Virus record (IMG/VR): IMGVR_UViG_3300028837_002886
Span: 1 to 64,000 of that record
DNA: 64,000 nt
Source: a virus
Strand: one strand, 5' to 3'
Position 1 is the first letter of the stretch. Every line of letters begins with the position of its first letter. Of the stretch, positions 16,291 to 56,860 are shown piece after piece. A program made the translations under genes and the position numbers. The notes under the pieces are model-generated. The model did no database searches. It saw nothing but the letters and a program-made list of their open reading frames with translations, and had not been told where the DNA came from.

Positions 16291-16614
16291 CTATTGTAAA
16301 AATATATAACGTAAAATGTCACTTGTGACTTCTCTTTTGGAATTTTTCAGAGCCTTCTCGATATCTTTTTTTTCACCTGGCAACATATCCTTCACTTCAA
16401 GCCAAGTCGATAAGCTGTGTGATAGACTGGCTTTCATTTTATATTTACCTTCCGTGGTTTCAGCTACATATTGATTCACTGATAACAGGATCGGGTAAGA
16501 TTTCCATTCGAACCCTACCGTCGCGATATATCTTCCTGGCTCACCCCATTTTGTACGATACCACTTGAAGGCCTCAAAATCAGCAATCTTTAATCTCTTA
16601 TATTCATCACTCAT
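16291..16614 (-). CDS. Small KWY-motif protein, possible outlier of the 21-23.6 kb array family
   Basis: 107 residues. The segment FEAFKWYRTKWGEPGRYIAT recalls the YYKWYR start of the array proteins between 20968 and 23605, and length and predicted alpha/beta make-up are similar. It ends with a Lys-rich helical tail. The gene overlaps its upstream neighbour by 8 bases. The relationship is my reading of a short motif and needs a profile comparison. Function unknown; location argues for a baseplate or assembly role. Confidence 0.68.
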   Translation of the reverse strand: MSDEYKRLKIADFEAFKWYRTKWGEPGRYIATVGFEWKSYPILLSVNQYVAETTEGKYKMKASLSHSLSTWLEVKDMLPGEKKDIEKALKNSKREVTSDILRYIFLQ

Positions 16615-16837
16615 TCTTGAATAATCCGTTTATAATTTGCTGCTTGTCTTTTATGTTGGCCTCAATAACTTCAAGATAGCCGGTTTCCAAGCCATCAAGA
16701 AACTCTGTATATGTAAACAACTCGCCTGGATAAAATTCAGCTTCGGTTTCTGGATCTATGAGCACAGGACCTTCGGGAGTATACTCTTCAACTTCAGCTA
16801 CCCCTTCAAAACTCATTTCTATCACTCTAAGTGTCAC
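16607..16837 (-). CDS. Small acidic protein in the baseplate operon
   Basis: 76 residues, strongly acidic, start MTLRVIEMSFEGVAEVE. The GTG at 16837 has GAGG at proper spacing, so I keep it over the internal ATG at 16816. The sequence is mainly Glu/Asp with short strands. No motif recognised. It lies between the gpI-like gene and a KWY protein with almost no intergenic space, so expression is coupled to baseplate genes. Confidence 0.65.
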   Translation of the reverse strand: MTLRVIEMSFEGVAEVEEYTPEGPVLIDPETEAEFYPGELFTYTEFLDGLETGYLEVIEANIKDKQQIINGLFKNE

Positions 16838-16846
16838 TTACATACC

Positions 16847-18367
16847 TCACGTTGGATACGGATTAGAGTCTAACCACGTCAAGAATTCCGCACCCGTTAA
16901 TGTAAAAGACCAACCTGCGTTATCGACATAAGTTTGCAAACTGTCAATAGCTGTTTTAAATGTCAGAGTGTGTTGCAATCCTGCGATATGAGATGGATGA
17001 TCAACTCCTCTAGCGTGTACTCCGTTGTGCCGTATATAATCACCTATTACATCTTCGTCTTCGCTTAATGGATATCCTTCGGTTGTAACTACAATATCCG
17101 TCAACAGTTGCTCGTCTGTTATATTTATTACCTGCGTATCATATTCTGTATCGTTTGTATCATAATCCGACTTGAGCTGCTCCCATTCGCTTCCGCTGGA
17201 GTTGATACCTGCTATATCGTAAATCAACTTCAGCAATACGATTGTAAAATCTTCATAAATCGGTACAGGACCATCTGTATAAGGCGACAGGTTGATATTG
17301 ATTGCAGATTGAATATAACTAGGAGATAGAAAATCCATATATTTGTTGATGATCTTATCAACAACGTCAGGATCCTGCGGCATCAAATCTGTGTCGCCCT
17401 GATAGAACTGTGTCAATTCGTGACGGATATAGTTCGTCTTAAAATATGTATAAGGATCCGGGAAACCAGGCACTACACCAAGCAGCTCGTCAACATCTAT
17501 TCCTCTTGCAGCCGGGTCTGCCAAGAAATCAAACATCTCAAGGTTCTTTGTTTCAGTAAACAACGAATTTGGTATAGGAGATGATATCACCTCGTCCGTT
17601 GCTGGATCCGTTTCGAACCTTTCTCTTGGGTCTGTTTCTGTTATGTAGTTCTCTGCCTTGGTTGAGGCTTTGCCAGGATTATCCACATCCCTATCGAAAT
17701 AATTCTCGATGACCTCGTAGTCAAAACCCAAAAACTTGAAGAAAAATTTGAAACTATAATTAGTTCCTTTTATGTGATATATTTCCAGAGCGTTTTTAAC
17801 AATCTCTCTGAATGATGTATCGCCAAGCTGAAAGTCCTCTTTTTCGTATCCAACTAGTTGAGCGAGATATGCCAAATATTCATCAGGCACCGTGTCTATG
17901 TTGCCCAATTTTTCTATGTCCGTAATGACCGCTTCGATTTTGTCGTATTCAATACCGACGGCGCCGAATAGAAGTTTGAGTTTCTCTTTTTCACTTATAA
18001 TGGCGTTGTCATATCTCGGCAAGAAATTGAATATGTTGGTGTTCCAATAAGGATCGTTGGCGCCGAACTTATATACATAACACATGTAAGTATATAAATA
18101 TCGGCTTGTAATACCACGCTCGCCTGAAACATACACGGTTCCATCTGGGTTGTATAGCGGATAGCTAGCTTTATCGGCCATGCGCTGCATCAATGTTTCA
18201 TCCAGATACAGATTTTGAGTAGTTGTGTTGGTAATATATCCCTCTGCATCTTCTGTATCCAATAGCGACGCGACAGCTCGCAGATCGGGTTCTGTGATGT
18301 TAGTAAAGTCCTCGAGCAGGTATTGGATAGCTGCACTATTTATCAACGCCAGAGCTTTGTCTGCCAT
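16847..18367 (-). CDS. P2 gpI-like baseplate protein
   Basis: 506 residues. Residues of about 150-220 carry the signature of P2 tail protein I: an acidic segment on remaining within a domain (VPDEYLAYLAQLVGYE), then SFREIVKNALEIYHIKGTNY. In the family this region contacts baseplate J and anchors fibres. It follows the gp6/J-like gene directly with a TAATG overlap, matching the conserved J-then-I order of contractile tails. The C-terminal half is family-specific and longer than in P2. Confidence is high for the class, moderate for the exact wedge role. Confidence 0.85.
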   Translation of the reverse strand: MADKALALINSAAIQYLLEDFTNITEPDLRAVASLLDTEDAEGYITNTTTQNLYLDETLMQRMADKASYPLYNPDGTVYVSGERGITSRYLYTYMCYVYKFGANDPYWNTNIFNFLPRYDNAIISEKEKLKLLFGAVGIEYDKIEAVITDIEKLGNIDTVPDEYLAYLAQLVGYEKEDFQLGDTSFREIVKNALEIYHIKGTNYSFKFFFKFLGFDYEVIENYFDRDVDNPGKASTKAENYITETDPRERFETDPATDEVISSPIPNSLFTETKNLEMFDFLADPAARGIDVDELLGVVPGFPDPYTYFKTNYIRHELTQFYQGDTDLMPQDPDVVDKIINKYMDFLSPSYIQSAININLSPYTDGPVPIYEDFTIVLLKLIYDIAGINSSGSEWEQLKSDYDTNDTEYDTQVINITDEQLLTDIVVTTEGYPLSEDEDVIGDYIRHNGVHARGVDHPSHIAGLQHTLTFKTAIDSLQTYVDNAGWSFTLTGAEFLTWLDSNPYPT

Positions 18368-20613
18368 TATTCACCACCTACTTCCACATAATCAAACATT
18401 ACACCATGTATTTGAGATGCCACCAGAAGAGATGCGCCTTCAAATTCGTTATTCGAAACAACCATTATCTCGTTATATTTGGTTTCTATATTGTCTAATC
18501 CATAATTCTTCGCTGTCGCTGGTGGAGTGACTGGATCCGCTTTATAGGTTTCATAATCTTTTCCAAAGTAAGCTACCTGTAAATATCTGACACCAGCGAT
18601 TGACTGAACTAACGCTATTATTTCTGGCAGCACAATCGGTTCAGCATAGTCTCGATTTAATAGGCTATAGTTAAGAAACATCAAAGCGTTTACTTGTTCC
18701 TTAACCAGTTCTTGGTTGTAGTTCTTTTCTACGTATACTGTGCCTTTGACGTCGAAAGCGGTATATAGTGTATCTAAGTATACATTATCTATACATAGCA
18801 TCTTCTTGTTTGCCAAATAATTTTCAAATGTAGTAATATCGGAGGCGGCGTCTGTTACTTGATCCCACCACCACCAGGTTATTGTTAAGGCTTGTCCGGC
18901 CGGGATACCATAACCACCCATTTGTTCATATCTGGTCAAGAGACCTCGTGCGTAGTCGAATATGTAATCGACATTCTGCAGGTAAGGAGACAGGCCAACC
19001 GCCACATCAATAGCGGGGTATCTTTGATATACCGGAATGTACTCACTAGGAAGCTGTAGCGTGTATGAACTTATGCCATAGTTTTGATTTACGGCCGCGA
19101 AGCTTGGTGCTTCTTTCAAGTACAGCACATCATCTACACCAGTTTCGATTGACGCTACTACCCCTAGATATATCTCAGAACCTGTGCCAGTTCCTGGAAT
19201 GGAGATAACGTCATCAACAGATAGCTCAGAGCTAAACAGTGTGCCGGCTCCTGTTACTTTAGTTGGTTCCACTCCAGACGGGTCGAATGATATCGTACCG
19301 GTTAAAAGGCTCATTGCTGGAAAAGTAAACACATCACTTTTCACTTCATAAGGTTTAGTTATCTGTAATTGAGTATTGTATTCAGTTCTTGGATCCAAGG
19401 ACGACCAATTAACATAAGAAGGAACAATATAGATCCAACTCTCGAATGTCGGTATTGTATATCCATATTCGTCTGCTATTTCCGCAGGCTCGTTCACTTT
19501 ACCATAGACAACTGCCAACATTACATTTGAATGAGATATAAGTATTCGTTTATAATCCAACGGAGTAACAGTCTTGTCCGCTGTGGTCACATATAATGGA
19601 GCTCTTCGTCTCGCTTCATCGACTGTTTCAGCATTTGTGCCGTTGGCGCCAGCTTCGTTATTGGTGAATGTAATCATTACCGGATTGCCGCCAACAACAT
19701 AAGACTTGGTTTCTTTTATGGCTCCTGTGACTACATTACCAGATGTTCCGCCGCCGACTCTATAATATATTTTGATTGTATCGCCTGCGGCAAACACATT
19801 GGCGATGTCAGAGCTGGCGAATTTAATTGTCGTCGCACTGTTGGCGTCGACATCCACCACATAAGGAGGCACCAACAATGGAGAACCATCTTCTTTCAGT
19901 TGGGCTTCCTCAGATACGAAGCTGTTAACCTCGGGGAGCTTTTCTACTTCCTCACCTGTAGCGTTAAGCGTCCAAATTTGAATACTGCCATCCGCTACGG
20001 GAGATTCGGCTAAAACCAAAAGCTCGTTATCTGTGCCAGTCATAGTTTCTTCTTGAGTTTTAGTACTGCCCTCGTAAAATGTCAAAGCGTCGTCGCCTGT
20101 GAAATTAAGAGTCTGACTGGTAATGGTGCCTGTGTTTAGTGTGACAATAGCATCATCTCCGAAGTATATAAAATCTCCATCGGAATCTTTTAGAATTAAT
20201 TCGAAGTTTGCAGTATCTCCATTTCTGTCTGTACCGGTGAGCGCCAAGAGAACCGGTAAATCAAACGGCTCCACCCAGTTTGATAGAACAGCATCAGTTA
20301 TGACAGAGGCCGCGCCTGGCAGTGTCAGTCTGTAATTAATAAGCTTCAATAGCTCAATAACAGATTGCGTTTGCGTAGCGGTTGCCAGGTATGATTCGTT
20401 AGCCTTCCAATCAACTCGGAATGCCAGCAAATCCATAGTGTATGCGGATATCTCTATCAGCATTCTGCCTGCGTTAGATTCTAAAAAGTCTTCCCAGTTT
20501 TCGTTGTATTCCGGATTTTCACGAACGACACGTTTAATGTCAGTTACTATTGTTTCAAAGTCCAGAGCCGTATAAGAAAATCTGGGTAGAGCAATAAGGT
20601 CATCAGTTGCCAT
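18367..20613 (-). CDS. Baseplate wedge protein, gp6/J-like
   Basis: 748 residues. The N-terminal region NWEDFLESNAGRMLIEISAY, followed by DLLAFRVDWKANESYLATAT, is the typical start of T4 gp6-type wedge proteins, whose helical bundle joins neighbouring wedges. A Baseplate_J-like beta region follows (TVDEARRRAPLYVTTADK near residues 330-350), which is the most conserved part of the family. The gene sits between the gp25-like and gpI-like genes, the expected order. Stop and next start overlap. Confidence 0.92.
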   Translation of the reverse strand: MATDDLIALPRFSYTALDFETIVTDIKRVVRENPEYNENWEDFLESNAGRMLIEISAYTMDLLAFRVDWKANESYLATATQTQSVIELLKLINYRLTLPGAASVITDAVLSNWVEPFDLPVLLALTGTDRNGDTANFELILKDSDGDFIYFGDDAIVTLNTGTITSQTLNFTGDDALTFYEGSTKTQEETMTGTDNELLVLAESPVADGSIQIWTLNATGEEVEKLPEVNSFVSEEAQLKEDGSPLLVPPYVVDVDANSATTIKFASSDIANVFAAGDTIKIYYRVGGGTSGNVVTGAIKETKSYVVGGNPVMITFTNNEAGANGTNAETVDEARRRAPLYVTTADKTVTPLDYKRILISHSNVMLAVVYGKVNEPAEIADEYGYTIPTFESWIYIVPSYVNWSSLDPRTEYNTQLQITKPYEVKSDVFTFPAMSLLTGTISFDPSGVEPTKVTGAGTLFSSELSVDDVISIPGTGTGSEIYLGVVASIETGVDDVLYLKEAPSFAAVNQNYGISSYTLQLPSEYIPVYQRYPAIDVAVGLSPYLQNVDYIFDYARGLLTRYEQMGGYGIPAGQALTITWWWWDQVTDAASDITTFENYLANKKMLCIDNVYLDTLYTAFDVKGTVYVEKNYNQELVKEQVNALMFLNYSLLNRDYAEPIVLPEIIALVQSIAGVRYLQVAYFGKDYETYKADPVTPPATAKNYGLDNIETKYNEIMVVSNNEFEGASLLVASQIHGVMFDYVEVGGE

Positions 20614-20617
20614 ATTA

Positions 20618-20971
20618 TTAACCTTCTAATTCGAATTCGTACTCTAAAAAGTTTTCATTCAACGGATTACCAACTTCATTGAATTGTAATTTAATAAATA
20701 AATTATTGCCTTCTGCGGTAATAATTATATCCTGTAAATTAACGCGCGGTTCATACCTGTTAAGCGCGTTTTCAATCATTCTTTTAACGTCATTGATATA
20801 TATATCGGCTTGAGATTCAAATAATAATTTTCTCAAGTTGCTTCCAAACTGAGGCCTGCCTACGCGTTCGCCGGGCGTAGTCATAAGGATGCGCGTAATA
20901 GATTCTTTTATGAGTGCCTCGTTTGCTTTTATTTTGAAAAAAGCTTCACTATAGAATCCGGGTCCTCTCAT
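20618..20971 (-). CDS. Baseplate wedge protein, gp25/gpW-like
   Basis: 117 residues, the usual length. It shows the gp25 pattern: a helical start, TTPGERVGRPQFGSNLRKLL at 31-50, then NRYEPRVNLQ at 71-80 (the EPR motif that nucleates sheath polymerisation in contractile systems), and beta strands at the end (LFIKLQF). It is adjacent to the gp6-like gene, 4 bases apart. Its own ATG overlaps the stop of the last array gene (ATGA), so the array and the baseplate genes are in one transcript. Confidence 0.95.
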   Translation of the reverse strand: MRGPGFYSEAFFKIKANEALIKESITRILMTTPGERVGRPQFGSNLRKLLFESQADIYINDVKRMIENALNRYEPRVNLQDIIITAEGNNLFIKLQFNEVGNPLNENFLEYEFELEG

Positions 20972-21240
20972 GCGAACTCCAACATTTGTGTTATTATTTC
21001 GGTTTTTGTATCTCTGCTATACAAAGATTTTGCCTCTATTTGTTTCTTACCTGTTTTTAAATCATCCCAGACATTCGGATCGGACGAATAACCACCTACA
21101 TTCATTTTGCCATAATCGTTCAGTTCGGCAATCATATGGCCAAACTTCTTTATGTGTATGCCGAGTGGTAAGTAGTAACACACTTCTGATCTATCTTGTG
21201 TTACTCTTTTTGCGTTATGCCACTTTCCAACCTCTGCCAT
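20968..21240 (-). CDS. Array protein 9 (last transcribed), small KWxx protein
   Basis: 90 residues beginning MAEVGKWHNAKRVTQDR. It shares with the 21257 product the sequence of a KW start, a Y-L-x-LGIH segment (CYYLPLGIHIKKFGHMIAEL) and a Gly/Val strand, so the two form one subfamily of the array. No catalytic residues stand out. It is coupled by ATGA to the gp25-like gene. Position in the operon suggests a virion component or assembly factor; function unknown. Confidence 0.75.
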   Translation of the reverse strand: MAEVGKWHNAKRVTQDRSEVCYYLPLGIHIKKFGHMIAELNDYGKMNVGGYSSDPNVWDDLKTGKKQIEAKSLYSRDTKTEIITQMLEFA

Positions 21241-21256
21241 TATCCAGGTCCTTTCA

Positions 21257-21553
21257 TTATAGCTCCAGGGCTCCTACTAATATTCCAGTTTTTATATATC
21301 TACGATATAGACCTAATTTATTGGCTTCTTCTTTGCTTAATTCTTTGTACCCCCACTTTTCAAGGAACAACGAAAGAAAATATTTTAAATCCAAAGTATT
21401 ATCGGTGACATATAGATCACCGGATTCGCCAACTTCTGCAACCAAGTATCCTGCGCCTTTTTTATGTATTCCAAGCAGCAGATACCAGCGTGTTTTTTCA
21501 TCTGTCGAATGTAGACTTTTGGCCGTACCGTACCATTTTACAAGTTCCGTCAT
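21257..21553 (-). CDS. Array protein 8, small KWY protein
   Basis: The start at 21553 (MTELVKWYGTAK) forms an ATGA overlap with the upstream gene and is preferred to an in-frame ATG 21 bases upstream; the product is 98 residues. The segment RWYLLLGIHKKGAGYLVAEV parallels the LGIHIKKFGHMIAEL segment of the following gene (20968), indicating duplication with strong divergence. The C-terminus is helical and basic. Function unknown. Confidence 0.75.
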   Translation of the reverse strand: MTELVKWYGTAKSLHSTDEKTRWYLLLGIHKKGAGYLVAEVGESGDLYVTDNTLDLKYFLSLFLEKWGYKELSKEEANKLGLYRRYIKTGILVGALEL

Positions 21554-21846
21554 TGTCTCGGTCCAAACAGCCAAAAGTAATTTTCTATAATTTTACCTTT
21601 GTTGCCCTTCAGATATCTCGCGACGTATTTTTTATCTGACGAAGACTCGTCGCAGACAACCATATTTTCTGGTTTTATAAGCCCGGTATTAATCCAAAGT
21701 TTTGTTAATTTATCATCACTTGTTACTAAATTGATATACGCCCACGGCATCAGTAACGAATTTTTGGGTGTTTTTATGGCAAATAAGAAAGTTCTTTCGT
21801 TTTTATATAACCGATGTTCTTGATACCACGTGTGGTATTTAATCAT
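21550..21846 (-). CDS. Array protein 7, subfamily A
   Basis: 98 residues. Shares with the products of 21846 and 22431 a common frame: an aromatic start (HTWYQEHR), FLFAIKTPK, WAYINLVTSDD, LWIN, then SDKKYVARYLKGNKGKIIEN and a F-x-x-FG-P end. These conserved blocks spread over the whole length show true paralogy rather than chance similarity. Both ends overlap neighbouring genes. Function unknown. Confidence 0.8.
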   Translation of the reverse strand: MIKYHTWYQEHRLYKNERTFLFAIKTPKNSLLMPWAYINLVTSDDKLTKLWINTGLIKPENMVVCDESSSDKKYVARYLKGNKGKIIENYFWLFGPRQ

Positions 21847-22148
21847 TATTCAGTTCCAAACTTATTGAAATATGCTAATACAATATTTCTTTTGTTGCCT
21901 TTCAGATGTCGCCAAATATGCTCTTCATCTTTTTTTGTTGCGCGCGCGAAGGGCAACTTTTCCGGTTTCGAGAGCAGCGAATGAATCCAAATCCTTCCAA
22001 AATCATCATCACTCGTCTGCAAAGTGATATACGCCCACGTATCGTCAGAGTAGCCGTGTTTAGGCGTTCTTATCGCGAACATGAAAATCTTTTTGTGTCC
22101 ACTTAATACTTCTTCCTCTCGTTTATACCATTTATAATACTCAGCCAT
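21846..22148 (-). CDS. Array protein 6, subfamily A
   Basis: 100 residues starting MAEYYKWYKREEE. Blocks shared with the 22431 and 21550 products: FMFAIRTPK, WAYITLQTSDDD, IWIHSLLSKPEKL and HLKGNKRNIVLAYFNKFG. It ends in a TAATG junction with the next array gene. The alternation A (this gene), B (22141), A (22431), B (22729) indicates duplication of a two-gene unit. Function unknown. Confidence 0.8.
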   Translation of the reverse strand: MAEYYKWYKREEEVLSGHKKIFMFAIRTPKHGYSDDTWAYITLQTSDDDFGRIWIHSLLSKPEKLPFARATKKDEEHIWRHLKGNKRNIVLAYFNKFGTE

Positions 22149-22431
22149 TTCGTATCTCGGTGTGATACTTAAATATATCGTCTATTAAATTGTGTTTCAA
22201 TTTAAGTCTTCGCATCGTTTTGAAAAGCTCGTCTTGTGTTTTTTTAGAAGGCTCTTTAACCAGGGACCAATATTGAGGTCCTAAAAATTGCGGACTAATG
22301 TGTCCATCATCAATCTTTGGTGTTATGACCATGGTATAACCGTGGCCGCCTTTACCCGGTACTGGCACGTTGATGGCCAGAAGGTAAAAGTTGTTTCTAT
22401 CCTGCCTATACCACTTGTAATAGTCAGCCAT
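22141..22431 (-). CDS. Array protein 5, subfamily B
   Basis: 96 residues starting MADYYKWYRQDRN. It pairs with the 22729 product: both have a G-rich segment after a YLL or YIL strand (NVPVPGKGGHGY here), then a Thr-Gln-Asp helix leading into MRRLKLKHNLIDDIF. The DNA encoding the last block is also nearly the same in both genes, so this duplication is more recent than the others. Overlaps the next gene by 8 bases. Function unknown. Confidence 0.8.
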   Translation of the reverse strand: MADYYKWYRQDRNNFYLLAINVPVPGKGGHGYTMVITPKIDDGHISPQFLGPQYWSLVKEPSKKTQDELFKTMRRLKLKHNLIDDIFKYHTEIRNG

Positions 22432-22736
22432 TATCCAGGTCCAAACATATTAAAATATTGTACTATAAATTTGCCCTTGTTTCCTTTCAAATATCGGCCG
22501 AGATATTCTTTATCCGATTTGCATTCGCGTCGGACGATCAACTCTCTCGGGCTCACGTACTCGTCATTAATCCAAAGTCTTGATAATTCATCCTCCGATG
22601 TTTCCAAAGTGAGATACACCCACGGCTCGCGCATGTTTTTTGATTTTGGCCTTTTTATACCAAACAAGAAGGACTTTAAGTCTCGCTTTGACCCTCCTCT
22701 CCTGTCTTCTCTATACCATTTATAGTAATCAGCCAC
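22431..22736 (-). CDS. Array protein 4, subfamily A
   Basis: 101 residues starting MADYYKWYREDRRGG. Contains the A-subfamily blocks FLFGIKRPK, WVYLTLETSEDELSRLWIN, and YLGRYLKGNKGKFIVQYF, ending in MFGPG. The start MADYYKWYR is also shared with the B genes on either side, so the subfamilies have a common N-terminal element and different bodies. Overlaps the next gene in a TAATG junction. Function unknown. Confidence 0.8.
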   Translation of the reverse strand: MADYYKWYREDRRGGSKRDLKSFLFGIKRPKSKNMREPWVYLTLETSEDELSRLWINDEYVSPRELIVRRECKSDKEYLGRYLKGNKGKFIVQYFNMFGPG

Positions 22737-23031
22737 TTTTCATTCCATAGTATCCAAACATCTCTTCTATCAAATTGTGTTTCAATTTGAGTCTTCGCAT
22801 CACTTCAAAAAGCCTGTCTTGTGTTTCTTTCGCAGGGTAGCTAATAGCGGGCCATGGGCCGCTATCGGCCCAACCTTTAGCCGATGCGAAGTCTAAACTA
22901 ACGTACCCCTCGTTATTGGGTTTTATGACCATAGCACAAAAACGGTAGCTTATGCCTGGTCCTGGCCCTTTAAAGCCCAGAATGTAATGCTTATTTACCT
23001 CTTGCTTATACCATTTATAGTAATCAGCCAT
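22729..23031 (-). CDS. Array protein 3, subfamily B
   Basis: 100 residues starting MADYYKWYKQEVN. The body has HYILGFKGPGPG, then ETQDRLFEVMRRLKLKHNLI, the same block order as the 22141 product. It overlaps the next gene by 8 bases, exactly as its B-subfamily paralogue does, which fits duplication of an A-B gene pair. No enzyme motif. Function unknown. Confidence 0.8.
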   Translation of the reverse strand: MADYYKWYKQEVNKHYILGFKGPGPGISYRFCAMVIKPNNEGYVSLDFASAKGWADSGPWPAISYPAKETQDRLFEVMRRLKLKHNLIEEMFGYYGMKSG

Positions 23032-23295
23032 TTATTGTGACCCGTGTATTGAGAATACCTTTTTTATCGCGCGCAACTTATCTCGAGAATCGCTAAGCTT
23101 AAATTTCCGTGGCATACCTGGTTCGAGTTCGTTTACGTATGTCGGAGGTTCATATTTTCCGGCGCGCACTCGCTCATCCTCTGTAAAGTAATATATACCT
23201 AAGGATTTATAAGCCGGCCAACCTGGCAATATAAGATACCAGTACATCTCTAATCTGCTTTTTGGAGATCGAAGCCACTCGCCCGTAGGAATCAT
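23032..23295 (-). CDS. Array protein 2, divergent member
   Basis: 87 residues starting MIPTGEWLRSPKSRLEM. The only similarity to the other array proteins is general: length, an aromatic start (GEWLR), an early Y-x-Y-L-I-L strand and a helical Lys-rich end. I place it in the array on position and architecture; homology is not proven. It ends one base before the next array gene begins. Function unknown. Confidence 0.65.
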   Translation of the reverse strand: MIPTGEWLRSPKSRLEMYWYLILPGWPAYKSLGIYYFTEDERVRAGKYEPPTYVNELEPGMPRKFKLSDSRDKLRAIKKVFSIHGSQ

Positions 23296-23305
23296 TTATG
23301 CCTCT

Positions 23306-23605
23306 TCAAATATACAAATTATAATTACTAATAAAATCTTTCAACGCCCACTGTTTATGATAAGCAGCCTTTTTTTTGAAAGCTCTGACCAGTTCGTTCC
23401 CCTCGTTGCTTAGCTCATCCAGTTCGGTCACATACTTATTATTTAGGCCAAAAGCAAGGTGAAGACTGACGGCCTCAACCGCGGTGCCAGATGTTAAATA
23501 AAAATACAAGCTCGTACCATCTTTCATCTTTATGGGCGTCATGTAAACTGCTGGCCTGTTGCTTGTGGTGCCTATGGATACCCACTTTTTTAATGTTGCT
23601 TTCAC
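23306..23605 (-). CDS. Array protein 1 (first transcribed), GTG start
   Basis: 99 residues. The start is GTG at 23605-23603, and it overlaps the TGA of the upstream structural gene once that gene's reading frame is corrected (GTGA). The protein starts MKATLKKWVSIG, then beta strands (YMTPIKMKDGTSLYFYLTSG) and a helical end. It resembles the other array proteins only in size and general layout. Function unknown. Confidence 0.7.
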   Translation of the reverse strand: MKATLKKWVSIGTTSNRPAVYMTPIKMKDGTSLYFYLTSGTAVEAVSLHLAFGLNNKYVTELDELSNEGNELVRAFKKKAAYHKQWALKDFISNYNLYI

Positions 23606-25436
23606 GATGGTTTAATCGCTCCAGAGTTAAGAAATCCATCAAGTATAACAAGCGAACCGTCTACTATTGCTCGCCACACTTTACTATCGTAAAAATTCAA
23701 ACTCAAAAAACTCTCACTGCTCGGCTGACCCGTCGTAGACTCGTCGTTCTCATCATACGGCGGTGGGAATCCTGTACCATCATTGAGAATTTTGATTTTA
23801 TAACTGGTCCATCTGGAGTATTGTAAAGCCTACCGGCATCACCGGTGCCAGCATCAAAACGATGAATCTCGTATTGTGCTGTCTGCATAACCATTTTCCA
23901 CGAGATTCTTATCCTGTCTGTATACTCCATTCGACTGCAGTCAACCTCATCGGTTCTCGGCTCGCGCTCCTCATATGGTATCCTCAAAGACTCAAGCTGT
24001 TGATCCAACAAGTTTACTTTTCCTGTTAATATATCAACGCCTTGAATGGTTGCGTTGTGTTTAACTAAAGTCCCACCACTTTTGTTTAATCTCGAATCTG
24101 TCCAAAGATATCTGAGCGCTCTCAAACCAGCAAACGCACCGTTTTTTGTCGCCGGAGTAAGAGTACCGAGGATGTCGTTTCCATTAATCTCTGACGTTCT
24201 GCTGTTTATCTTTGTTTTGGAGTCGCCGGCTATAGTATTTACAGCCCCGATTTCAGCATCGCTATAGCCGGCACCGTGCGATGTAGAACTGGCAGGTAAA
24301 TGAGCAGTTAGTTGACTCGCCCAAGAGCCACTGCCGCCACCAGTTGTAACTTCGCTATAAAAATCGTTTGTCTCCGTCCAACCTATTGCAATATCCCCCG
24401 GATTGTCCCATGTTCCAGTACCACCAAGAACTTCCCATGTTGGTGTAGTCTCGCCCAAAAGTGTTATATCGCTTTTATAATAAGCTATAATATCTTCTAA
24501 AACTGGTACCAAGGCGTTAATGTCTGTTATCAGAGTCGTCATGCCATTATAGTATGTACTCAGCGCTGTTGGGAACTCCTGCCAACCTGCGCCGCCCTGA
24601 TTCGACCACCAATCACCGTTGTTAACTCTTTGATTATTAGTCCATTTGTAATAATTCTGTATAACGGCATTGTGAGGACCACCTACCCAATCTGGATTCC
24701 AGTTGCCACCTTCTTCGTGTTCCGGAACCACGGTATAATAACCTTTAAAATAATAAGTTCCAGTAGACATATTCAACGCCATTGACGCGGTTAATGTACC
24801 CAAGAATTTAACTCCATTTGCCTCGATATAGTATTTACCATTCGTCAGAGGCGGAGATCCCGCTCCAGGAATATTAACTATAACTCCTAAGTACTTAGGA
24901 GGCGTTGGCCAATCTGGATTAAGCTTCAACGTAACAGTAGAGCCCACAGGAGCGCTGTATCTTGTGCTTCCTGCTGCCCCGGAAAATATCCAGCCATTTT
25001 GTAGCTGATCGGAATAAGTAGCCAAGTTGTTTATCAGCGCCACCATGCCCGCTGTGCCGCTGCCTGATTGTTGATTGCGATACATCTGCTCGCAAAGCTT
25101 GTAAACATTCATGTCCAGATACCCTTCGGTTATTGTTGGAAAGGTATCATAATCAGGAGCTGTCATAGAAAGAATCCATGGAGAAGTACCCGAAAGGGAT
25201 GCTAATGGTCCCCATGTGCCCATGAACTTGCTGACTGTCTGACCGTTTAAATGGTTTCTTTCACCATAGTACTTTATTATAGCATTTTCTACGCCTGTGA
25301 AGAGTTCGCCATTCACCTGATCCGATTGCGCAAATGCTTCTTTCTGTTGAGTATCCATATACCAGACGCTAAATTTGTTTAATCTGGTATCTTTCTTGAT
25401 AGACTCCTTTTTTATTTGTAACTCTGTTAGTGCCAT
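23602..25436 (-). CDS. Tail structural protein, apparent frameshift near 23787-23799
   Basis: As sequenced, the frame from 25436 ends at 23703 after 577 residues, finishing with an unnatural Arg-rich tail (DSHRRMMRTTSLRR). One extra A in either AAAA run (23799-23796 or shortly after) joins the frame that reads ILNDGTGFPPPYDENDES and continues to a TGA at 23604-23602, which forms a GTGA junction with the next gene. The corrected length is 611 residues. The protein is rich in Gly, Trp and Thr, with a helical N-terminus and beta-rich middle, and near residue 520 a fibronectin-like strand (RIRISWKMVMQTAQYEIHRF). It lies next to the spike gene; a baseplate or spike-associated role is inferred. Confidence 0.72.
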
Positions 25437-25439
25437 TTT

Positions 25440-26960
25440 TTAACCTTTAGCTAATACTTGACCTGCGAATGGAATTGTACAAGGGCCTCCTGATGTGCCA
25501 GGAGGAGATATTATCATAGCTGTCTTGTTTAGTATATCTCCAATCGCGGCGCCTAAATCTACCAAATTTCCTATTTCAACCTTCGCGTTGCCTATTATTT
25601 TGACTTTAGCGTTGCCTATGATTTCTACGTTTGCGCTGGCGTTTACCTTGAAGTTCATGCTGTCGGATTTTGTATCATTAGCGTCTAGCCTAAATACACC
25701 CAAACTGTCCGTTATAGTAACCAACATAGGCTCTATGGTAATTGCGCCTTGTGCGTTAGCCGTACTGAGTTGCAGCAATCCCTCATTTATGTGTAGGTAT
25801 TCTTTAGTGCTGCCGCCGGTATCCAACCTTGTCATTTCAACACTACCCAATGTGTTGATTAATAAACCGGGAGTTTCGTTGTTGAATCTGAGCACTTCAA
25901 AATCATTACCATATTCATATGTTCCTGATGGATCTGAGACTTGCGGATTATCCTGCTCGTTTGCGCCGTGCAACCACATTCCACTTTGCTGCATCTTGAC
26001 GAAGTTGCCCCAATCATCTTCTAGAGAAAACACACCTGCTCCAGCGCTGCCCGTGGAAACGATAGATATTCCATCTCGAGTGGTATTAATTAAATTATTC
26101 CATATATCGCCAATATGAACACCATCATCATCCATCCAAATACTGCTATATGCAGAAAACCCTACTTCTTCTTGGGATTCATTTTTTTTCGTTACTTTTG
26201 TTCTATAAAACCACCTGGTTTCCTCATCTTGAATTCTGAAGAAATTAGAATAATTAAGATTTAGTGGATCTGTTGTATCCTCATCGTCAGCTATTTCGCC
26301 TTCAAGCATTACATCATCTTCAATAGTATAAGATTCGAAGTTGTATGTATATCCTATCGCGTAACTGTCTTTACTTGTGCGGCCTTGATTATATTTTAAT
26401 ATAGTGAACTCGTCTTCAGACAGCTTAAGTAAGTTCTCAGATTTAATCCACGTTTCTGATTCATCGCTATCTGCGCCGATATCCGTATTAGTTACATCAT
26501 TTTCCCTTGTTGGATACTGTGTCTTCCAAACTATTGTAGTCGGATCATCATCCATTTCTACGGGAAGAGATGGAATAGTATACAGAACCTCCTCGTCCTC
26601 TTCAACAGGAAACTCTTTAAGGTTCGAGCCACCCAGCCAAATAGCAGTGGCGCCATCGGCGTCGAGATATCCAACAAAGCCAACAGAGCCTATTGGTGGT
26701 ATAATATGTATACCTGAGTTTTGAGGGCCTCCCAATAAGTTTAAAACGAATGCCCACTCGTAGTTCTCATCCAGTTCGTTCACAGAGTCAAATTTAAATG
26801 TTCTTATGAGAATGCGGCCTCTGTTTTGCGGATCGTTTGTGTTTATTACTTTGCCACGATAAATGGCGTTATACTGGCCCTGGCTAAGCGTCTGCTTTTC
26901 GGTTGGCAGGTATCGCTTGGTAAGATGTTCTCTTGATGCTGGACGGACAATGGCTTCCAC
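25440..26960 (-). CDS. Baseplate spike protein, gp5/gpV-like, without lysozyme domain
   Basis: 506 residues. The N-terminal OB-fold region is visible at about 30-112: YRGKVINTNDPQNRGRILIR, then IHIIPPIGSVGFVGYLDADG. The C-terminal part reads as a repetitive beta-helix (ASANVEIIGNAKVKIIGNAK near 445-465), as in T4 gp5 and VgrG spikes that puncture the outer membrane. The lysozyme domain that T4 gp5 carries between these parts is absent; residues 120-290 are acidic and unrecognised. Genes on both sides are baseplate genes. Confidence 0.85.
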   Translation of the reverse strand: MEAIVRPASREHLTKRYLPTEKQTLSQGQYNAIYRGKVINTNDPQNRGRILIRTFKFDSVNELDENYEWAFVLNLLGGPQNSGIHIIPPIGSVGFVGYLDADGATAIWLGGSNLKEFPVEEDEEVLYTIPSLPVEMDDDPTTIVWKTQYPTRENDVTNTDIGADSDESETWIKSENLLKLSEDEFTILKYNQGRTSKDSYAIGYTYNFESYTIEDDVMLEGEIADDEDTTDPLNLNYSNFFRIQDEETRWFYRTKVTKKNESQEEVGFSAYSSIWMDDDGVHIGDIWNNLINTTRDGISIVSTGSAGAGVFSLEDDWGNFVKMQQSGMWLHGANEQDNPQVSDPSGTYEYGNDFEVLRFNNETPGLLINTLGSVEMTRLDTGGSTKEYLHINEGLLQLSTANAQGAITIEPMLVTITDSLGVFRLDANDTKSDSMNFKVNASANVEIIGNAKVKIIGNAKVEIGNLVDLGAAIGDILNKTAMIISPPGTSGGPCTIPFAGQVLAKG

Positions 26961-26963
26961 GCA

Positions 26964-27317
26964 TTACGCTCCTGAAGAACCTAGCACTCTAAAGGCATCT
27001 GGAATTCTGACGGTTATGCCCGAATCTAAATCTCTTACTGGATGCTCAATATTGTTTTCCTTTGCTATGACCCACCACAGTTTTGTTGTTCCATAGAACT
27101 TCAAAGAAATAAGATCTGGTCTTCCCGCTAAATACTTTTCTATAACATAATAAGTATCCTCAGGACCTTCGGGATAACTCGGTAGATTATTATATCCCAA
27201 CCCTATTCTGAAATCAGACACCACTTCGTCGTATATGATTGTATAATATTGAAAACGGTTGTAGGTATCGTATAGATTATTTTGTTTGCCCGACGTTGTT
27301 TTCTTTGTTATAGCCAT
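26964..27317 (-). CDS. LysM-like baseplate wedge protein (gp53-like)
   Basis: 117 residues. Residues 66-111 carry a LysM-like pattern: RPDLISLKFYGTTKLWWVIA, then EN, then SGITVRIPD. In contractile phages this type of small protein (T4 gp53 or tail X-like) clamps wedges or the hub. Position between the spike gene and the 1291-residue gene, 3 bases from the former, agrees with a baseplate role. The LysM match is good; equivalence to gp53 itself is inference. Confidence 0.8.
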   Translation of the reverse strand: MAITKKTTSGKQNNLYDTYNRFQYYTIIYDEVVSDFRIGLGYNNLPSYPEGPEDTYYVIEKYLAGRPDLISLKFYGTTKLWWVIAKENNIEHPVRDLDSGITVRIPDAFRVLGSSGA

Positions 27318-27327
27318 AGCTTACTCC

Positions 27328-30300
27328 TTAGAAAAGACCACCAATTCCACCGATTTTGTCGAGAACAGATTGTTTCAAGCTTGGGTTCTGGAGTTGTTGT
27401 TTGTATGGTAAATAGCCAGACAGGTCTGCCATGCCCTCGAAAGTGAAGATATCCTCATCTACTTCTATCATACTCAATGCGATTTTTACTATTTGATATC
27501 GTTTCGTTTCTTGATTTATTTGGCCCTCAAATGTTACCGCAACTTGATTTATAATAAACAATGGATCTATATCTGTTTTTTGGACATACTCGCCGTTTTT
27601 ATCTCTCAAGCTCACGCGCTTCTTAAAGTAATTACCGTATACCAGTCTAACTACAGCTGGTGCTGTTGCGTCTTCCCGGTGGTATTGTGGAACCACCAAA
27701 CCTCTGATAGTATTAAGAATCCAGTAGACTGTGTTTTCATCCCAACCTTGAAGGTCTTCCATGCCTTGATAATCATTAGCAAGATATCTCTCAAGCGTTT
27801 TGGCACCCGAACTCAGAATGTCCTTGTCTATAGCAGATCTAGCCAAGTCCGCAATGGTAGTTGATGCCAAATCTATGCGCTTGGCCGAATCACTGACGGG
27901 TGCTGGCTCTAATACCGCATAAGTAAGGTTCATTGACAGTGTCCTGTTTTCAGAACCTGTATATGTATAAAGACTGTTTGAGCGGCCAAGAATCTGAAGT
28001 GGCGCCCAGCTGGCCGATTTGGAATCGCCAGTGATCTCTGGAGTAAATTGAAATGGCAGTCTTGCCGGTATATTCAACGGCTCTTGGCCGCCATATCCAA
28101 CCGCGCCGCTTCCCCATGGTGTGTATTTCTTACGGCCCTTGTAAATGTGATCCTGATCTCCAGCCTCTTCGGCTATGTTCATCGGGTTGCCTTCGGCGTC
28201 TTTGATGTTGCCCTTGCTGAACACCTCCAAATAGCCGTAACCTCTCAGGCTCTTTCCGCCTATTGTTAGGACTCTAGGTTTTACTTTGTCTAGATTGGCT
28301 TCAGATGTTTTTGGAACCTTGCCAGGTTCCGCATTCTGACCTTGACTGTCACCTGGCTTGAATAAGTTTTTTATGCCGGTTTTTGCCCAATCCGCCATGG
28401 CTCCACGAGGACCCACTGGTCTGGATAATTTATTCAACGAAAAATACATGTCATAGTATGGCAAGTTCTGGCCTATGGTAAAAGGTCCGCCGTATGCTAT
28501 CCTGACTTCTTCGGGTATGTTGTTTAGGTTTCTGGGATTAACCCCTAGGCTACCAGCGGCCTCTGCTGTTGTTCTAAATCCTGGTATGTTTGTCAAATGT
28601 AAATCCAATGGAAGTTTCTTTTCAAATCCCATACCGGCTTCGGCTCTGTATGTTCTAACATAACCAGCCGCATTTCTGCGCTCATCATAACTTCTATCAT
28701 CTAGATAAGTAATGATGACCTGGTTATCGCCACTGTCTTTGGTGAGTGTGCCTTTTGGAAACGTTTCTAATGGCACGCTTTCGCCCGGTAAAATAGTCGG
28801 AGCTGGAGTCACAAACCCCGATGGATCGAATGGATACTCAGGAGCGTCCTTTGTAAAGTCTCTGTCAGGATCCTCGTTTACAGTTAAAACATCGACGGGT
28901 ATTCTTGGTGCGTCTTGTGTCCCTTTGGTCGCTCCAGCATAAGCGGCCATGCTGACATCCAGATCGACATCCAATGGGGAATGTTCATCGGGATCTTTGG
29001 CAAATGCGCTGAACACTTTTTCATTGCCTTCGGCATCCACATTCTCAACTAATGTATCATAATTAGGAGAATCTTTTATTTGACTTGCATCAGTCAACAT
29101 TGACTCTTCTGTTAGTCCAGTGAGGTTCTTTGAATAAGGATTTATTGCGGGATCTACATCTGTATTTCTTGTTATGTCCAGTTCAATTTTCGGATCCCCT
29201 TCGGTGCCTTTGACTACACTGGCATCTGGTAGCATACCTCGATCAGTCAAGCCGTTCTCGTTTTGTCCTGGAGTTATTTTTTCTTCGTGAACAGTTCTAT
29301 CTATCTGTTCTAATGGCTCAACTTGATCCAACTTGGCGTTATGCGCTCCTATCATCATACCGCCATCTTCTTGTGTGCCGGGTTTATTTGTTCCAGCCAA
29401 AGGAGTATCCAGCGGTTTGAATGTATAGTTAGGAGTTTGAGCCTCGGTTTTGATAAGAGAAGCGTCGGCCGCGTCAAATGTGTTAAATGTATCTCTTAGC
29501 CCTCCGCCCGATGTGACGCCTGTAACGTTTACTCTTCCGCTGGGACTTTCAGGTTTTGGTCTGATTTGATCTGCAGGTCCTTGTTCTTGAACGCCAGGTA
29601 TAACAGCTTCTATCTCTTCCTTTTGTGCTTCTCTTGCGGTAAACGTGTATTCGAGTTCGTTATCGCTTTTTGCAGGAGAACCAACCGTGACTGATGGTAT
29701 GCGTTCGTTAGAGGATACCGCAGGGCCTTCGATTGTTACGGCCTCCGAAAAATTGTCTGGAGATATAATAGTTGAATATCCCTGCTCCTCGCGATTGTCC
29801 ACTTGAACACGAATGTTAGTAAATAATTGTTCTAACGTTTCTGCTTTTATGCCTTTATCTGTCTGATGAAACACGTCCGTCAAATACGTATCTGTTCCCG
29901 GAGGTAGCTCAAATTCTGCATCAGCTATATTTAGTTCTTCCTTGCTGACGTGAGCAGCTACTTCCGCTACCAATGCGGCCATTACTTCTTGTGCGCTTAG
30001 TGGTTTTACGGAGCTGCTGTCCTGTGCCGGGTTGTTTCTAATATAATTCAAATCCGCTTCCAAATCTCCGCGGCTTATTGTTATAACATTTTCCTCGGTT
30101 TTTGCATTTTTATTATATATTTCTCCCAATGGCTTATCGCCATAAAGCTCCTGAATTTTGTCTCTGCTGAACTGCTCTATGTCTATAATCTTTTGATTTG
30201 CCACCACATTTTTGATGTTCTCTATAACATCATCCCAATTGATTTCCTGATCTTCTTTGTTGGTTTGTAGTTCAGAAGGAAGTATCTCTTGAAGCTCTTT

Positions 30301-31203
30301 GGCTAAGTGTTGAAGCTCTGGAATAGTCTCTTCTGTTTTAGCCAGATGTTCTACTTCTTCAACCGTCTGCTCTGTTTTCGCTTCATGTTCCGGCGTATAA
30401 ATGTCTACGAAGTCTTTTGTTAGATGCTCGTAAACGATAACATCCACTTGATCCTTGAATTGATGCGGTCTATCCTCCACATCAAGATCTTCCTTGAACT
30501 TATGTTCATCGGCTTCGGCTATCTCAACTATGGATTTTTCGTCGCCATCAGGGGACACTATTTCTATTTCTGTTTTTTCTTCACCTTCTGCAGCAGGAGC
30601 TATTTCTAATTCAGTCTTGTTGAGGTTGGCATCTGCCGTGATTGTAAGATCTGATTTTTGCTGCTCTCTTAATACATCTATTACCTCTTCCTGCTTCACC
30701 GTTCTGTCTACTACGTCAGAAAGCTGCTGCTCCGATTTGGCGCCGCGGACAACATCTTCTTCTTCTATGCTGGTCTCTGTTTTGGCGGCGTCACTTGCGG
30801 CCATGTTGATATTTCTTAGTTGTTTCCATATATAGTCGCCTGAAATGTTTGTCTCTATCTCTTCTTTTTTGGAACGCTCAGCGGCTTCGGCCACATTGAC
30901 CGTTTCTTTCTGCTCGCCTTCGGAAGCCGGTATTATTTCCTGTTCTTCTTTATTGGTTGCTTCTGGAGGTGTTACCTCTATTTCGGTTTTGCCCTCTCCC
31001 GGCGTTATAACTATGTCTTCCTGTTCCTTTTTGGTTTGTGGGCCCGCTTCACTGATGTTTTGGTCTTCTTTGATATCGCGATCGGTCGGTATACTTACAA
31101 TCTGTTCTTCTTTGCGCGCGTCTTCCGATCGATCTACTCCATCAACCGAGTAACCATAACTACCGAGATCTGGAGGAGTTGTGAGATCGTTTTCATCAGG
31201 CAT
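27328..31203 (-). CDS. 1291-aa tail protein with acidic repeat region and tail-tube/baseplate-cap-like C-terminus
   Basis: The first 340 or so residues are made of short repeats, about 14-16 residues each, in which a Lys-Glu/Thr-Glu pair is followed by an Ile/Val strand (KTEIEVTPPEA, KEEQEIIPASEGE, EKTEIEIVSPDGD). A less regular acidic, proline-rich segment follows to about 850. The last 350 residues look like a folded domain with FQFTPEITGDSKSASWAPLQ, then LYTYTGSENRTLSMNLTY, which recalls proteins joining the tail tube to the baseplate. It is encoded right after the tape measure. The C-terminal assignment is tentative; the repeat region is unlike anything I know in this position. Confidence 0.72.
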   Translation of the reverse strand: MPDENDLTTPPDLGSYGYSVDGVDRSEDARKEEQIVSIPTDRDIKEDQNISEAGPQTKKEQEDIVITPGEGKTEIEVTPPEATNKEEQEIIPASEGEQKETVNVAEAAERSKKEEIETNISGDYIWKQLRNINMAASDAAKTETSIEEEDVVRGAKSEQQLSDVVDRTVKQEEVIDVLREQQKSDLTITADANLNKTELEIAPAAEGEEKTEIEIVSPDGDEKSIVEIAEADEHKFKEDLDVEDRPHQFKDQVDVIVYEHLTKDFVDIYTPEHEAKTEQTVEEVEHLAKTEETIPELQHLAKELQEILPSELQTNKEDQEINWDDVIENIKNVVANQKIIDIEQFSRDKIQELYGDKPLGEIYNKNAKTEENVITISRGDLEADLNYIRNNPAQDSSSVKPLSAQEVMAALVAEVAAHVSKEELNIADAEFELPPGTDTYLTDVFHQTDKGIKAETLEQLFTNIRVQVDNREEQGYSTIISPDNFSEAVTIEGPAVSSNERIPSVTVGSPAKSDNELEYTFTAREAQKEEIEAVIPGVQEQGPADQIRPKPESPSGRVNVTGVTSGGGLRDTFNTFDAADASLIKTEAQTPNYTFKPLDTPLAGTNKPGTQEDGGMMIGAHNAKLDQVEPLEQIDRTVHEEKITPGQNENGLTDRGMLPDASVVKGTEGDPKIELDITRNTDVDPAINPYSKNLTGLTEESMLTDASQIKDSPNYDTLVENVDAEGNEKVFSAFAKDPDEHSPLDVDLDVSMAAYAGATKGTQDAPRIPVDVLTVNEDPDRDFTKDAPEYPFDPSGFVTPAPTILPGESVPLETFPKGTLTKDSGDNQVIITYLDDRSYDERRNAAGYVRTYRAEAGMGFEKKLPLDLHLTNIPGFRTTAEAAGSLGVNPRNLNNIPEEVRIAYGGPFTIGQNLPYYDMYFSLNKLSRPVGPRGAMADWAKTGIKNLFKPGDSQGQNAEPGKVPKTSEANLDKVKPRVLTIGGKSLRGYGYLEVFSKGNIKDAEGNPMNIAEEAGDQDHIYKGRKKYTPWGSGAVGYGGQEPLNIPARLPFQFTPEITGDSKSASWAPLQILGRSNSLYTYTGSENRTLSMNLTYAVLEPAPVSDSAKRIDLASTTIADLARSAIDKDILSSGAKTLERYLANDYQGMEDLQGWDENTVYWILNTIRGLVVPQYHREDATAPAVVRLVYGNYFKKRVSLRDKNGEYVQKTDIDPLFIINQVAVTFEGQINQETKRYQIVKIALSMIEVDEDIFTFEGMADLSGYLPYKQQLQNPSLKQSVLDKIGGIGGLF

Positions 31204-46962: not shown

Positions 46963-47151
46963 GGCCGATCGGCCAGAAGAAATGACGGGTTTCCACTGCG
47001 CGCAGGTGGGTATCTTTGGTGATCGATACACGTTTAAGTTAATACACTTAGAAGTGGTGCCAATTGGAATATTCACACGCCAACGACACGTCAAGCATGT
47101 TTTATTCATCAAAAGCATTTTAGCTTTTTTCTTGCGTGTCCAGTTTGCCAT
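46942..47151 (-). CDS. Four-cysteine AK-x-LL protein
   Basis: 69 residues from the ATG at 47151 (MANWTRKKKAKMLLM); an upstream in-frame start at 47235 is rejected because it lies within the preceding gene and extends past the family N-terminus. It has the family layout: a basic AKMLLMNK start, CLTC, a spaced Cys (TTSKC) and a last Cys (IPTC). This suggests a small zinc- or Fe-S-binding fold. First of four relatives in a row from 46942 to 47852. Its 3' end contains the -35 of the cca promoter. Confidence 0.72.
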   Translation of the reverse strand: MANWTRKKKAKMLLMNKTCLTCRWRVNIPIGTTSKCINLNVYRSPKIPTCAQWKPVISSGRSAFTGRAI

Positions 47152-47428
47152 TATGTTTTTTCCGCATAAGAGATATGTATTTTTTATGCGTACGTTCCAC
47201 ATGTTGCCAGAAGTCATCACGCTTATGGGCGTCATTCACATGAGGATAGTAATCTTCACAAAACAGTTCTTTTGGGACATCACACATTCCGCTGTCGTGT
47301 AAAAATGTGTTTCTTTCTTCAAGTCGACAATACCAGTCTTTATATTCAAAAGAGCCCTTTATACAATAGAGGCAATTTATACATCCTTTATCTAATAGCA
47401 GTTTTTTGGCGACGTTCGCTTTTTTCAT
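47120..47428 (-). CDS. Four-cysteine AK-x-LLL protein
   Basis: 102 residues from the ATG at 47428 (MKKANVAKKLLLDKG), chosen because it overlaps the upstream stop (ATGA) and brings the AKKLLL motif to the expected position. Cysteines: CINCLYC, then WYC, then SGMC and LFC. Longer than its relatives by a basic C-terminal helix (HVERTHKKYISLMRKKH). Function unknown; probable metal binding. Confidence 0.72.
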   Translation of the reverse strand: MKKANVAKKLLLDKGCINCLYCIKGSFEYKDWYCRLEERNTFLHDSGMCDVPKELFCEDYYPHVNDAHKRDDFWQHVERTHKKYISLMRKKHNGKLDTQEKS

Positions 47429-47652
47429 ACTATACGTTTTGAACCTTCCCAAAAATCACATGTTCCCATGACATTTATTTTACAAACTTTACCAATAAAG
47501 TCATGATTTTTATTGTTACTCCAAAGCGGGTGCGCGCAATAATGCCCTATATTATTGCCGTATGCATCTAAATGATAAAAATGTATGCACCTCTGACATG
47601 TTTTACCTAATAATAATTTTTTTGCGCACTCTTTTGTAAATCTATCTCTCAT
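47425..47652 (-). CDS. Four-cysteine AK-x-LLL protein
   Basis: 75 residues starting MRDRFTKECAKKLLLGK. Layout CQRC, then HYC, then VC and a final TC, equivalent to its neighbours. Start overlaps the upstream stop (ATGA). A Tyr/His-rich stretch lies between the first two pairs. Function unknown; the conserved cysteines point to a metal site rather than disulfides, since the protein has no signal peptide. Confidence 0.72.
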   Translation of the reverse strand: MRDRFTKECAKKLLLGKTCQRCIHFYHLDAYGNNIGHYCAHPLWSNNKNHDFIGKVCKINVMGTCDFWEGSKRIV

Positions 47653-47852
47653 TTCGTTTTATAACCGCGGTAAAAGTCCCGACATGTATAATCATTGGAA
47701 ATATTTTCGTCTACACCACTCTGCCGCGAACGCAACATGCATAAGTATTGGTATTTATGTGTTTTTGGATGAAGACGTCGGTATCCGTAAAGGCACTTGC
47801 AACAGTTTTTGTCCAACAATAATTTTTTAGCTACAACGCTCTTGCTTATCAT
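47649..47852 (-). CDS. Four-cysteine AK-x-LLL protein
   Basis: 67 residues starting MISKSVVAKKLLLDKN. Layout CCKC, then YLC, then YTC. Start overlaps the stop of the exonuclease gene (ATGA). Middle region YRRLHPKTHKYQY is basic and aromatic, suggesting contact with nucleic acid. It belongs to the same family as 46942, 47120 and 47425. Function unknown. Confidence 0.72.
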   Translation of the reverse strand: MISKSVVAKKLLLDKNCCKCLYGYRRLHPKTHKYQYLCMLRSRQSGVDENISNDYTCRDFYRGYKTK

Positions 47853-56631: not shown

Positions 56632-56860
56632 TCAACTCCTCCCTCAAAGCTTTTAACTCTTTATAGTGTTCGCATGTTCTAGTCGTTGGCACATCAGACA
56701 CACGTCTCTCGAGTGTTCTCTTTCGATCTGGTTCCCGGTATTCTGGAACGCACCAAACAGGGTAGCCGGAATCCATAATACTCCCCCGAGTTCGCCATCC
56801 ACACGTCTCACAGTTTTTAAGTAAAAGCCCCTTGGCTATTTCTGCTTTGGCTGAAACCAT
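56621..56860 (-). CDS. Four-cysteine AK-x-LLL protein
   Basis: 79 residues from the ATG at 56860 (MVSAKAEIAKGLLLKN), which has GGGA at the right distance; an ATG two codons upstream is the alternative. Layout AKGLLLKN, CETC, then VWC and a final TC, matching the relatives at 46.9-47.9 kb. Basic and charged between cysteines. The gene overlaps its neighbours on both sides. Function unknown. Confidence 0.72.
   Translation of the reverse strand: MVSAKAEIAKGLLLKNCETCGWRTRGSIMDSGYPVWCVPEYREPDRKRTLERRVSDVPTTRTCEHYKELKALREELSGT

Follow-up and report, generated by a model that had tools for sequence, protein, structure and literature searches.

In phages with contractile tails, baseplate genes count among the better conserved parts, and it can be asked why a baseplate operon should hold a run of small, diverging paralogues. 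We examined such a run in a 64,000-nucleotide (nt) stretch of viral DNA (the window, positions 1 to 64,000 of record IMGVR_UViG_3300028837_002886, which is 130,931 bp long; coordinates are those of the window unless the record is named). Nine small open reading frames (ORFs) lie on the minus strand at 20968-23605, directly ahead of a gene for a gp25-like baseplate wedge protein, as stated in an original prediction made without database searches. Our preferred reading, to which we give a probability of about one half, is that an accessory gene of the baseplate operon has undergone lineage-specific tandem expansion and that its small, mostly basic products dock on the baseplate. The genes are, in order of transcription and with lengths in amino acids (aa):

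23306..23605, minus strand: g1, 99 aa, GTG start, the array's first gene, a singleton with no homologue in the distant relative G001 (described below)
23032..23295, minus strand: g2, 87 aa, a singleton
22729..23031, minus strand: B1, 100 aa, MADYYKWYK start; 45% identical to B2 (E=2e-25)
22431..22736, minus strand: A1, 101 aa, GTG start, overlaps B1 by 8 nt; 48% identical to A3 and 43% to A2
22141..22431, minus strand: B2, 96 aa, paralogue of B1
21846..22148, minus strand: A2, 100 aa, overlaps B2 by 8 nt; paralogue of A1 and A3
21550..21846, minus strand: A3, 98 aa, paralogue of A1 and A2
21257..21553, minus strand: C1, 98 aa; 32% identical to C2
20968..21240, minus strand: C2, 90 aa, overlaps the gp25-like gene by 4 nt; paralogue of C1 (E=1e-7)

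The predicted size range of 87 to 101 aa holds with C1 read from an in-frame ATG at 21553, which gives 98 aa beginning MTELVKWYG. The ORF finder had placed this start at a TTG at 21574 (105 aa), a less likely choice; we moved it because the ATGA junction overlaps the A3 stop. Where neighbouring genes of the array meet, they overlap by 8, 4 or 1 nt or are spaced by 0, 10 or 16 nt. The TGA stop of B1 lies within the start of A1, and that of B2 within the start of A2 (ATGGCTGA or GTGGCTGA); overlapping starts and stops also tie the array to the gp25-like gene. In the array region, no signal resembling a promoter or a terminator exceeded chance level, so that none was seen to split the operon.

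How many of these genes are related to each other? BLASTP among the window ORFs sorted seven of the nine into three families, leaving g1 and g2 as singletons: three A genes (41-48% identity, E 1e-21 to 1e-31), two B genes (45%, E 2e-25), and a C pair that the original prediction had missed (32%, E 1e-7; z=15.7 against shuffled sequences). The claim of at least five clear paralogues is therefore borne out by A and B, far beyond chance. A common start had also been claimed, with many of the proteins said to begin MADYYKWYR; the start is MADYYKWY in three of them and MAEYYKWY in a fourth. Neither profile nor shuffled-alignment comparisons detected similarity of g1 or g2 to other array proteins. 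Full-length profile similarity among all nine was not significant, being restricted to the N-terminus for A and B and not significant for C, g1, g2 and x, a possible additional gene described below. A single family for all nine genes was rejected as unproven, as a joint profile finds its own members and independent pairs of profiles do not.

The A and B proteins do have a common start and divergent bodies, as predicted, with similarity confined to the first ~12 residues. Smith-Waterman comparisons of A1 or A2 with B gave z values of 7-10 for the whole proteins and 0-1.3 after N-terminal trimming, and hhalign aligned A and B over 31 columns (E=1.3e-7) and found nothing once the first 14 aa were removed. 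At the DNA level, 24 of the first 27 nt agree between A1 and B1, against only 8 of the next 27 (chance level). AlphaFold2 (AF2) models add to this comparison. The A1 model, built from a ten-row alignment, has four strands (7-10, 20-28, 39-47 and 50-57) and a long C-terminal helix (73-98), with a predicted local distance difference test score (pLDDT) of 72 and a predicted template modelling score (pTM) of 0.63. The B1 model, aligned with B2 only, has strands at 5-10, 15-21, 31-36 and 42-45 and helices at 68-80 and 83-94 (pLDDT 58). The element order, four strands and then helix, is the same in both, which would favour a common A/B fold, though at a low to moderate model confidence that falls short of proof. 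For unrelated folds, named in the original prediction as an outcome that would count against it, these models of moderate (A) and low (B) confidence give no evidence either.

Duplication of an A-B pair had been proposed as well, and the DNA agrees, with the B-A pair as the unit. Aligning [B1 A1] with [B2 A2] matched 381 of 579 ungapped positions (66%; 607 columns, 28 gaps), against 38-44% for shuffled sequences, and registers other than this one align more poorly. The 585-nt repeat spacings fit the B-A pair as the duplicated unit. Within the A family, A2 has its lowest synonymous difference (pS) with A1.

We then compared the array with the same place in a relative. Searches made directly with the small proteins reached only a near-identical record (described below), and with gp25 as bait we recovered IMGVR_UViG_3300019850_000208 (G001), a distant relative of 108,574 bp. 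Window 1-40184 and the structural module of G001 are colinear, mostly at 47-75% aa identity with a few small genes lower, and G001 encodes clear orthologues of every larger structural protein that flanks the array. Between the 644-aa gene of G001, the counterpart of the gene upstream of the array (648 aa when intact), and gp25, this phage has one gene of 93 aa (L015:5710-5991, beginning MMSPGLYKWYEEES...). The gene is a diverged A-type (about 30% identity; A profile E=6.5e-15) that resembles the array genes in slot, family, KWY start and a GNKG motif near the C-terminus, and differs in being present in one copy instead of nine. Counterparts of B, C, g1, g2 or x were not detected anywhere in the 108.6-kb G001 record. 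An A-type gene thus precedes gp25 in both phages, a conserved place within the virion module, and the comparison of copy number in relatives suggested by the original prediction, one against nine, favours an expansion. Homology between the two records (E<=1e-10) is confined to the structural module, window 1-40184 and G001 68724-108082; outside it, the other 90 kb of the window record and the other 68 kb of G001 have nothing in common at this threshold, which suggests strong mosaicism or incomplete records.

When did the copies arise? The pS between A1 and A2 is 0.50 (95% interval 0.36-0.66) and between B1 and B2 0.48 (0.33-0.64), and six structural genes compared between the window and G001 have values of 0.76-0.86 (gp6 0.81 (0.76-0.86), spike 0.83, gp7 0.86). 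Both paralogue intervals end below those of gp6, gp7, spike, gp25 and the 648-aa gene, and meet that of gp53 at its edge. The A1/A2 and B1/B2 duplicates are younger than the split between the two phages, because their pS is lower than that of the structural orthologues. The C1/C2 pair is saturated (pS 0.76), and its duplication may therefore predate the split. Amino acid change has been faster in the array: the nonsynonymous difference (pN) is 0.35 for A1/A2, 0.30 for B1/B2 and 0.47 between A and the single gene of G001, versus 0.19-0.25 for the structural genes. Divergence in the array family outruns that of every neighbouring structural gene in the comparison, in line with the predicted diversifying family in a conserved baseplate module. 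A maximum-likelihood pairwise codon model gave omega values, all with wide intervals, of 0.74 (A1-A2), 0.37 (A1-A3), 0.48 (A2-A3) and 0.49 (B1-B2). The orthologues had omega of 0.01-0.02, with synonymous divergence (dS) saturated so that only 'low' is meaningful. Paralogues beyond chance, fewer copies in the relative, and A and B duplicates younger than the split together mark the array as a lineage-specific tandem expansion.

The recognisable neighbours of the array are structural genes, listed here together with the gene immediately upstream and with x:

16847..18367, minus strand: tail protein I-like, 506 aa (PF09684 E=3e-8)
18367..20613, minus strand: gp6/BaseplateJ-like wedge protein, 748 aa (PHROG 219 E=1e-17), 68% identical in G001
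20618..20971, minus strand: gp25-like baseplate wedge protein, immediately downstream of the array (PF04965 E=6e-16; PHROG 261 E=7e-24)
23703..25436, minus strand: gene upstream of the array, 577 aa, 62.6% identical to the 644-aa protein of G001
25440..26960, minus strand: gp5-like spike with a Phage_base_V OB domain (PF04717 E=9e-8)
26964..27317, minus strand: gp53-like wedge protein (PHROG 7145 E=4e-13)
16291..16614, minus strand: x, a possible tenth member, 107 aa with ...FKWYR..., after the tail-protein-I-like gene

The array had been placed between the spike region and the gp25-like gene. That position stands, with the correction that the spike is not adjacent, since the 577/648-aa gene intervenes. 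This gene had no credible match in the profile libraries, which included Pfam, PHROGs and NCBIfam. It is intact (648 aa) in IMGVR_UViG_3300008516_000190, the near-identical record. A stretch of 112 bp is missing from the window at 23803/23804, and the resulting frameshift shortens the product from 648 to 577 aa. The two records are otherwise 100% identical over the roughly 25 kb compared, and the difference could be a genuine deletion or an assembly error. The similarity of x to the array is weak (nine-member profile E=0.06; A2 versus x z=3.3-4.6), which makes it a candidate tenth KWY gene that these scores do not statistically secure. It is one of two small genes (76 and 107 aa) at 16291-16837, between the tail-protein-I-like gene and a 315-aa gene; both are absent from G001, where the gap is ~250 nt. 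Beyond gp53, at 27328-31203, lies the gene for an acidic 1291-aa protein (isoelectric point (pI) 4.5), 47% identical to a similar G001 protein. Its N-terminal ~700 residues look like degenerate repeats rich in KEEQ/EI-type segments, and it had no Pfam match.

Searches for further relatives defined how narrow the family is. The small proteins had no significant match in PHROGs (best E 0.041), Pfam (0.11) or NCBIfam (none). When A1, B1, C1 and the single G001 gene were compared by tblastn with 50,697 phage records, only chance matches (E>=3) appeared, and no relatives of array proteins were found in INPHARED phages. IMG/VR scans with the A, B and A-plus-G001 profiles returned only the near-identical record and G001, and profile scans of GTDB genomes with the small proteins returned none. 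The gp25 bait recovered these two records and 56 more distant loci, and KWY genes are absent from all 56; in GTDB genomes gp25 itself had three weak matches only. By title and abstract, the literature on tandem paralogues in phage baseplates held nothing directly relevant. Moorella phage MTATph1, which heads the phage list for the DNA polymerase (32%), was set aside as a comparison, its baseplate region being annotated differently. On these sequence comparisons the array family appears to be an orphan whose position is defined and whose N-terminus carries a short conserved segment.

We propose the following course of events. Most likely, the slot between the 648-aa gene and gp25 held an A-type gene in the common ancestor, a state that G001 retains. 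The A-type copies would then have multiplied in the lineage of the window phage, once as a joined B-A pair, and their proteins would have diverged quickly; C, g1 and g2 may be either ancient members that G001 has lost or more recent additions. Each gene is predicted to yield a protein of ~11-12 kDa with four strands and a C-terminal helix, probably through coupled translation in the late operon, immediately ahead of gp25. From the position, the coupling and the persistence of the slot, we infer that these proteins act at the baseplate. The conserved N-terminal KWY segment, together with a basic surface, would attach them to the acidic baseplate or to the 648-aa protein within it, and the changing bodies may alter baseplate display or assembly, their diversity presumably being selected rather than merely tolerated. 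The charges are compatible with docking and lend it weak support: A, B, g1, g2, x and the G001 protein have pI values of 9.2-9.6, and the acidic neighbours (spike, gp25, gp6, gp7-like and the 1291-aa protein) have values of 4.2-5.1, with 5.8 for the gp53-like protein. Decorations, assembly factors or non-virion proteins would all be possible products of such genes; the interchangeable virion decorations, baseplate chaperones and early-injected effectors put forward in the original prediction are likewise guesses at function.

Several observations weigh against this reading. The uncultured huge phage LR756511 shares the order gp53-like, hub-like, spike, gp25, gp6, gp7-like, fibre-collar-like (read from ORFs), but its gp25 directly follows the spike gene, with no small genes and no 648-aa gene. 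In another phage, L046, whose gp25 is 43% identical, a 1220-aa gene adjoins gp25 and no small gene is present there. As neither has a small gene in this position, the KWY family does not belong to baseplates in general. The libraries searched held no homologue whose function is known, and Foldseek with the A model found no relative in PDB or BFVD. Basic pI is common in this genome (median 9.2 for ORFs of 80-110 aa), and C1 and C2 are near neutral (7.8-7.9). The timing of A3 is marginal (A1-A3 pS 0.50-0.79), and the omega interval of A1/A2 includes 1; raised omega after duplication would fit relaxed constraint too, which these data do not separate from positive selection. Finally, small genes are duplicated elsewhere in the same genome, in tandem or near-tandem and once as a pair, as in the array: a tandem pair at record 89328-89833 (genes 89328 and 89573, 51% identity), a duplicated gene pair at record 101201-102767 (101201 and 101748 versus 102100 and 102447, 31-32%), and a pair at record 73656-75591 (73656 and 75328, 38%). 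Duplication thus appears general in this phage and not baseplate-specific; the array may be just one example. A link between these genes and the array by descent was rejected, as profile comparison with the KWY families gave nothing significant.

Other explanations account for part of the same evidence. Small host-takeover or counter-defence proteins, carried in the late operon and multiplying in an arms race with the host like a gene accordion, would also be orphan, fast-evolving and variable in copy number, and the small-gene duplications elsewhere would suit them. In gene accordions such as csa1 of Staphylococcus aureus the copy number of a tandem family changes between related genomes (PMC7360770), as it does here; unlike a recent near-identical amplification, however, the array copies are strongly diverged (41-48% identity). 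Such non-virion genes are possible, though unlikely, since early functions would be oddly placed in a structural operon and an A-type gene keeps its slot against gp25 in a phage whose neighbouring genes are about 66% identical. Neither Pfam, PHROGs and NCBIfam nor PADLOC, which covers defence and not counter-defence families, gave a match. The array might instead encode chaperones used in wedge or spike assembly and absent from the finished virion, with different copies serving different subunits. Small basic proteins packed against wedge genes with acidic products would be expected of them, and a single copy may suffice in G001. We consider this doubtful, because G001 has orthologues of all the larger flanking structural proteins, yet manages with one copy, and because rapid divergence is unlike chaperones of conserved clients.

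The near-identical DNA at the A1 and B1 starts, followed by chance-level identity, would suit a modular decoration system in which the KWY N-terminus is a common docking tag and the bodies behind it are duplicated, swapped and diversified. If this rather improbable reading were true, the phage would carry alternative baseplate-attached modules that vary in number and kind between relatives. Neutral duplication, with extra copies tolerated and drifting without new function, gains from the A1/A2 omega interval and from the other duplicated small genes. It is quite improbable in view of nine reading frames that are all open at a paralogue synonymous divergence of roughly 0.7-4, with coupled start/stop junctions intact and the KWY start retained. 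In polyimmunity loci of SUKH and other immunity families, distantly related paralogues likewise stand in tandem, in one orientation and closely spaced (PMC3482391), and small proteins neutralising variable toxins would have the architecture seen here. The array differs in its location within a structural operon of a phage. Pfam gave no match to an immunity or SUKH domain, no toxin gene was recognised beside the array, where the recognisable neighbours are structural, and in G001 the 648-aa protein encoded upstream shows conservation as far as its C-terminus, all of which makes this explanation extremely improbable.

Two further features of this phage were observed. A short motif, mostly AKxLL, recurs at one end, N- or C-terminal, in about 18 small, otherwise different-looking proteins (47120-47452, 47425-47652, 47649-47852, 56836-57084, 57272-57613 and about 13 more at record 84.6-118.4 kb). 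It has 22 terminal matches in 204 ORFs, against a mean of 4.8 and a maximum of 12 in shuffles and 1/204 in middle segments, an excess biased upward as the pattern was chosen after viewing the sequences. The motif is not enriched in G001 and could be a sorting or packaging tag. In addition, the coding sequence of a DnaE-like DNA polymerase is divided between two ORFs (record 118672-120780 and 125662-126882) that cover PHROG 405 positions 441-1053 and 42-440, respectively. Other genes, about 4.9 kb in all, separate them, and the N-terminal part contains no intein-sized extra sequence.

Overall, a change from one to nine copies, with paralogues outpacing the neighbouring structural genes compared in amino acid change, makes this slot a place to study innovation in a fixed machine. 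The pair of genomes with one and nine copies makes this question testable without inferring ancestry from a single genome, and the short conserved N-terminal segment can be tested as a docking signal.

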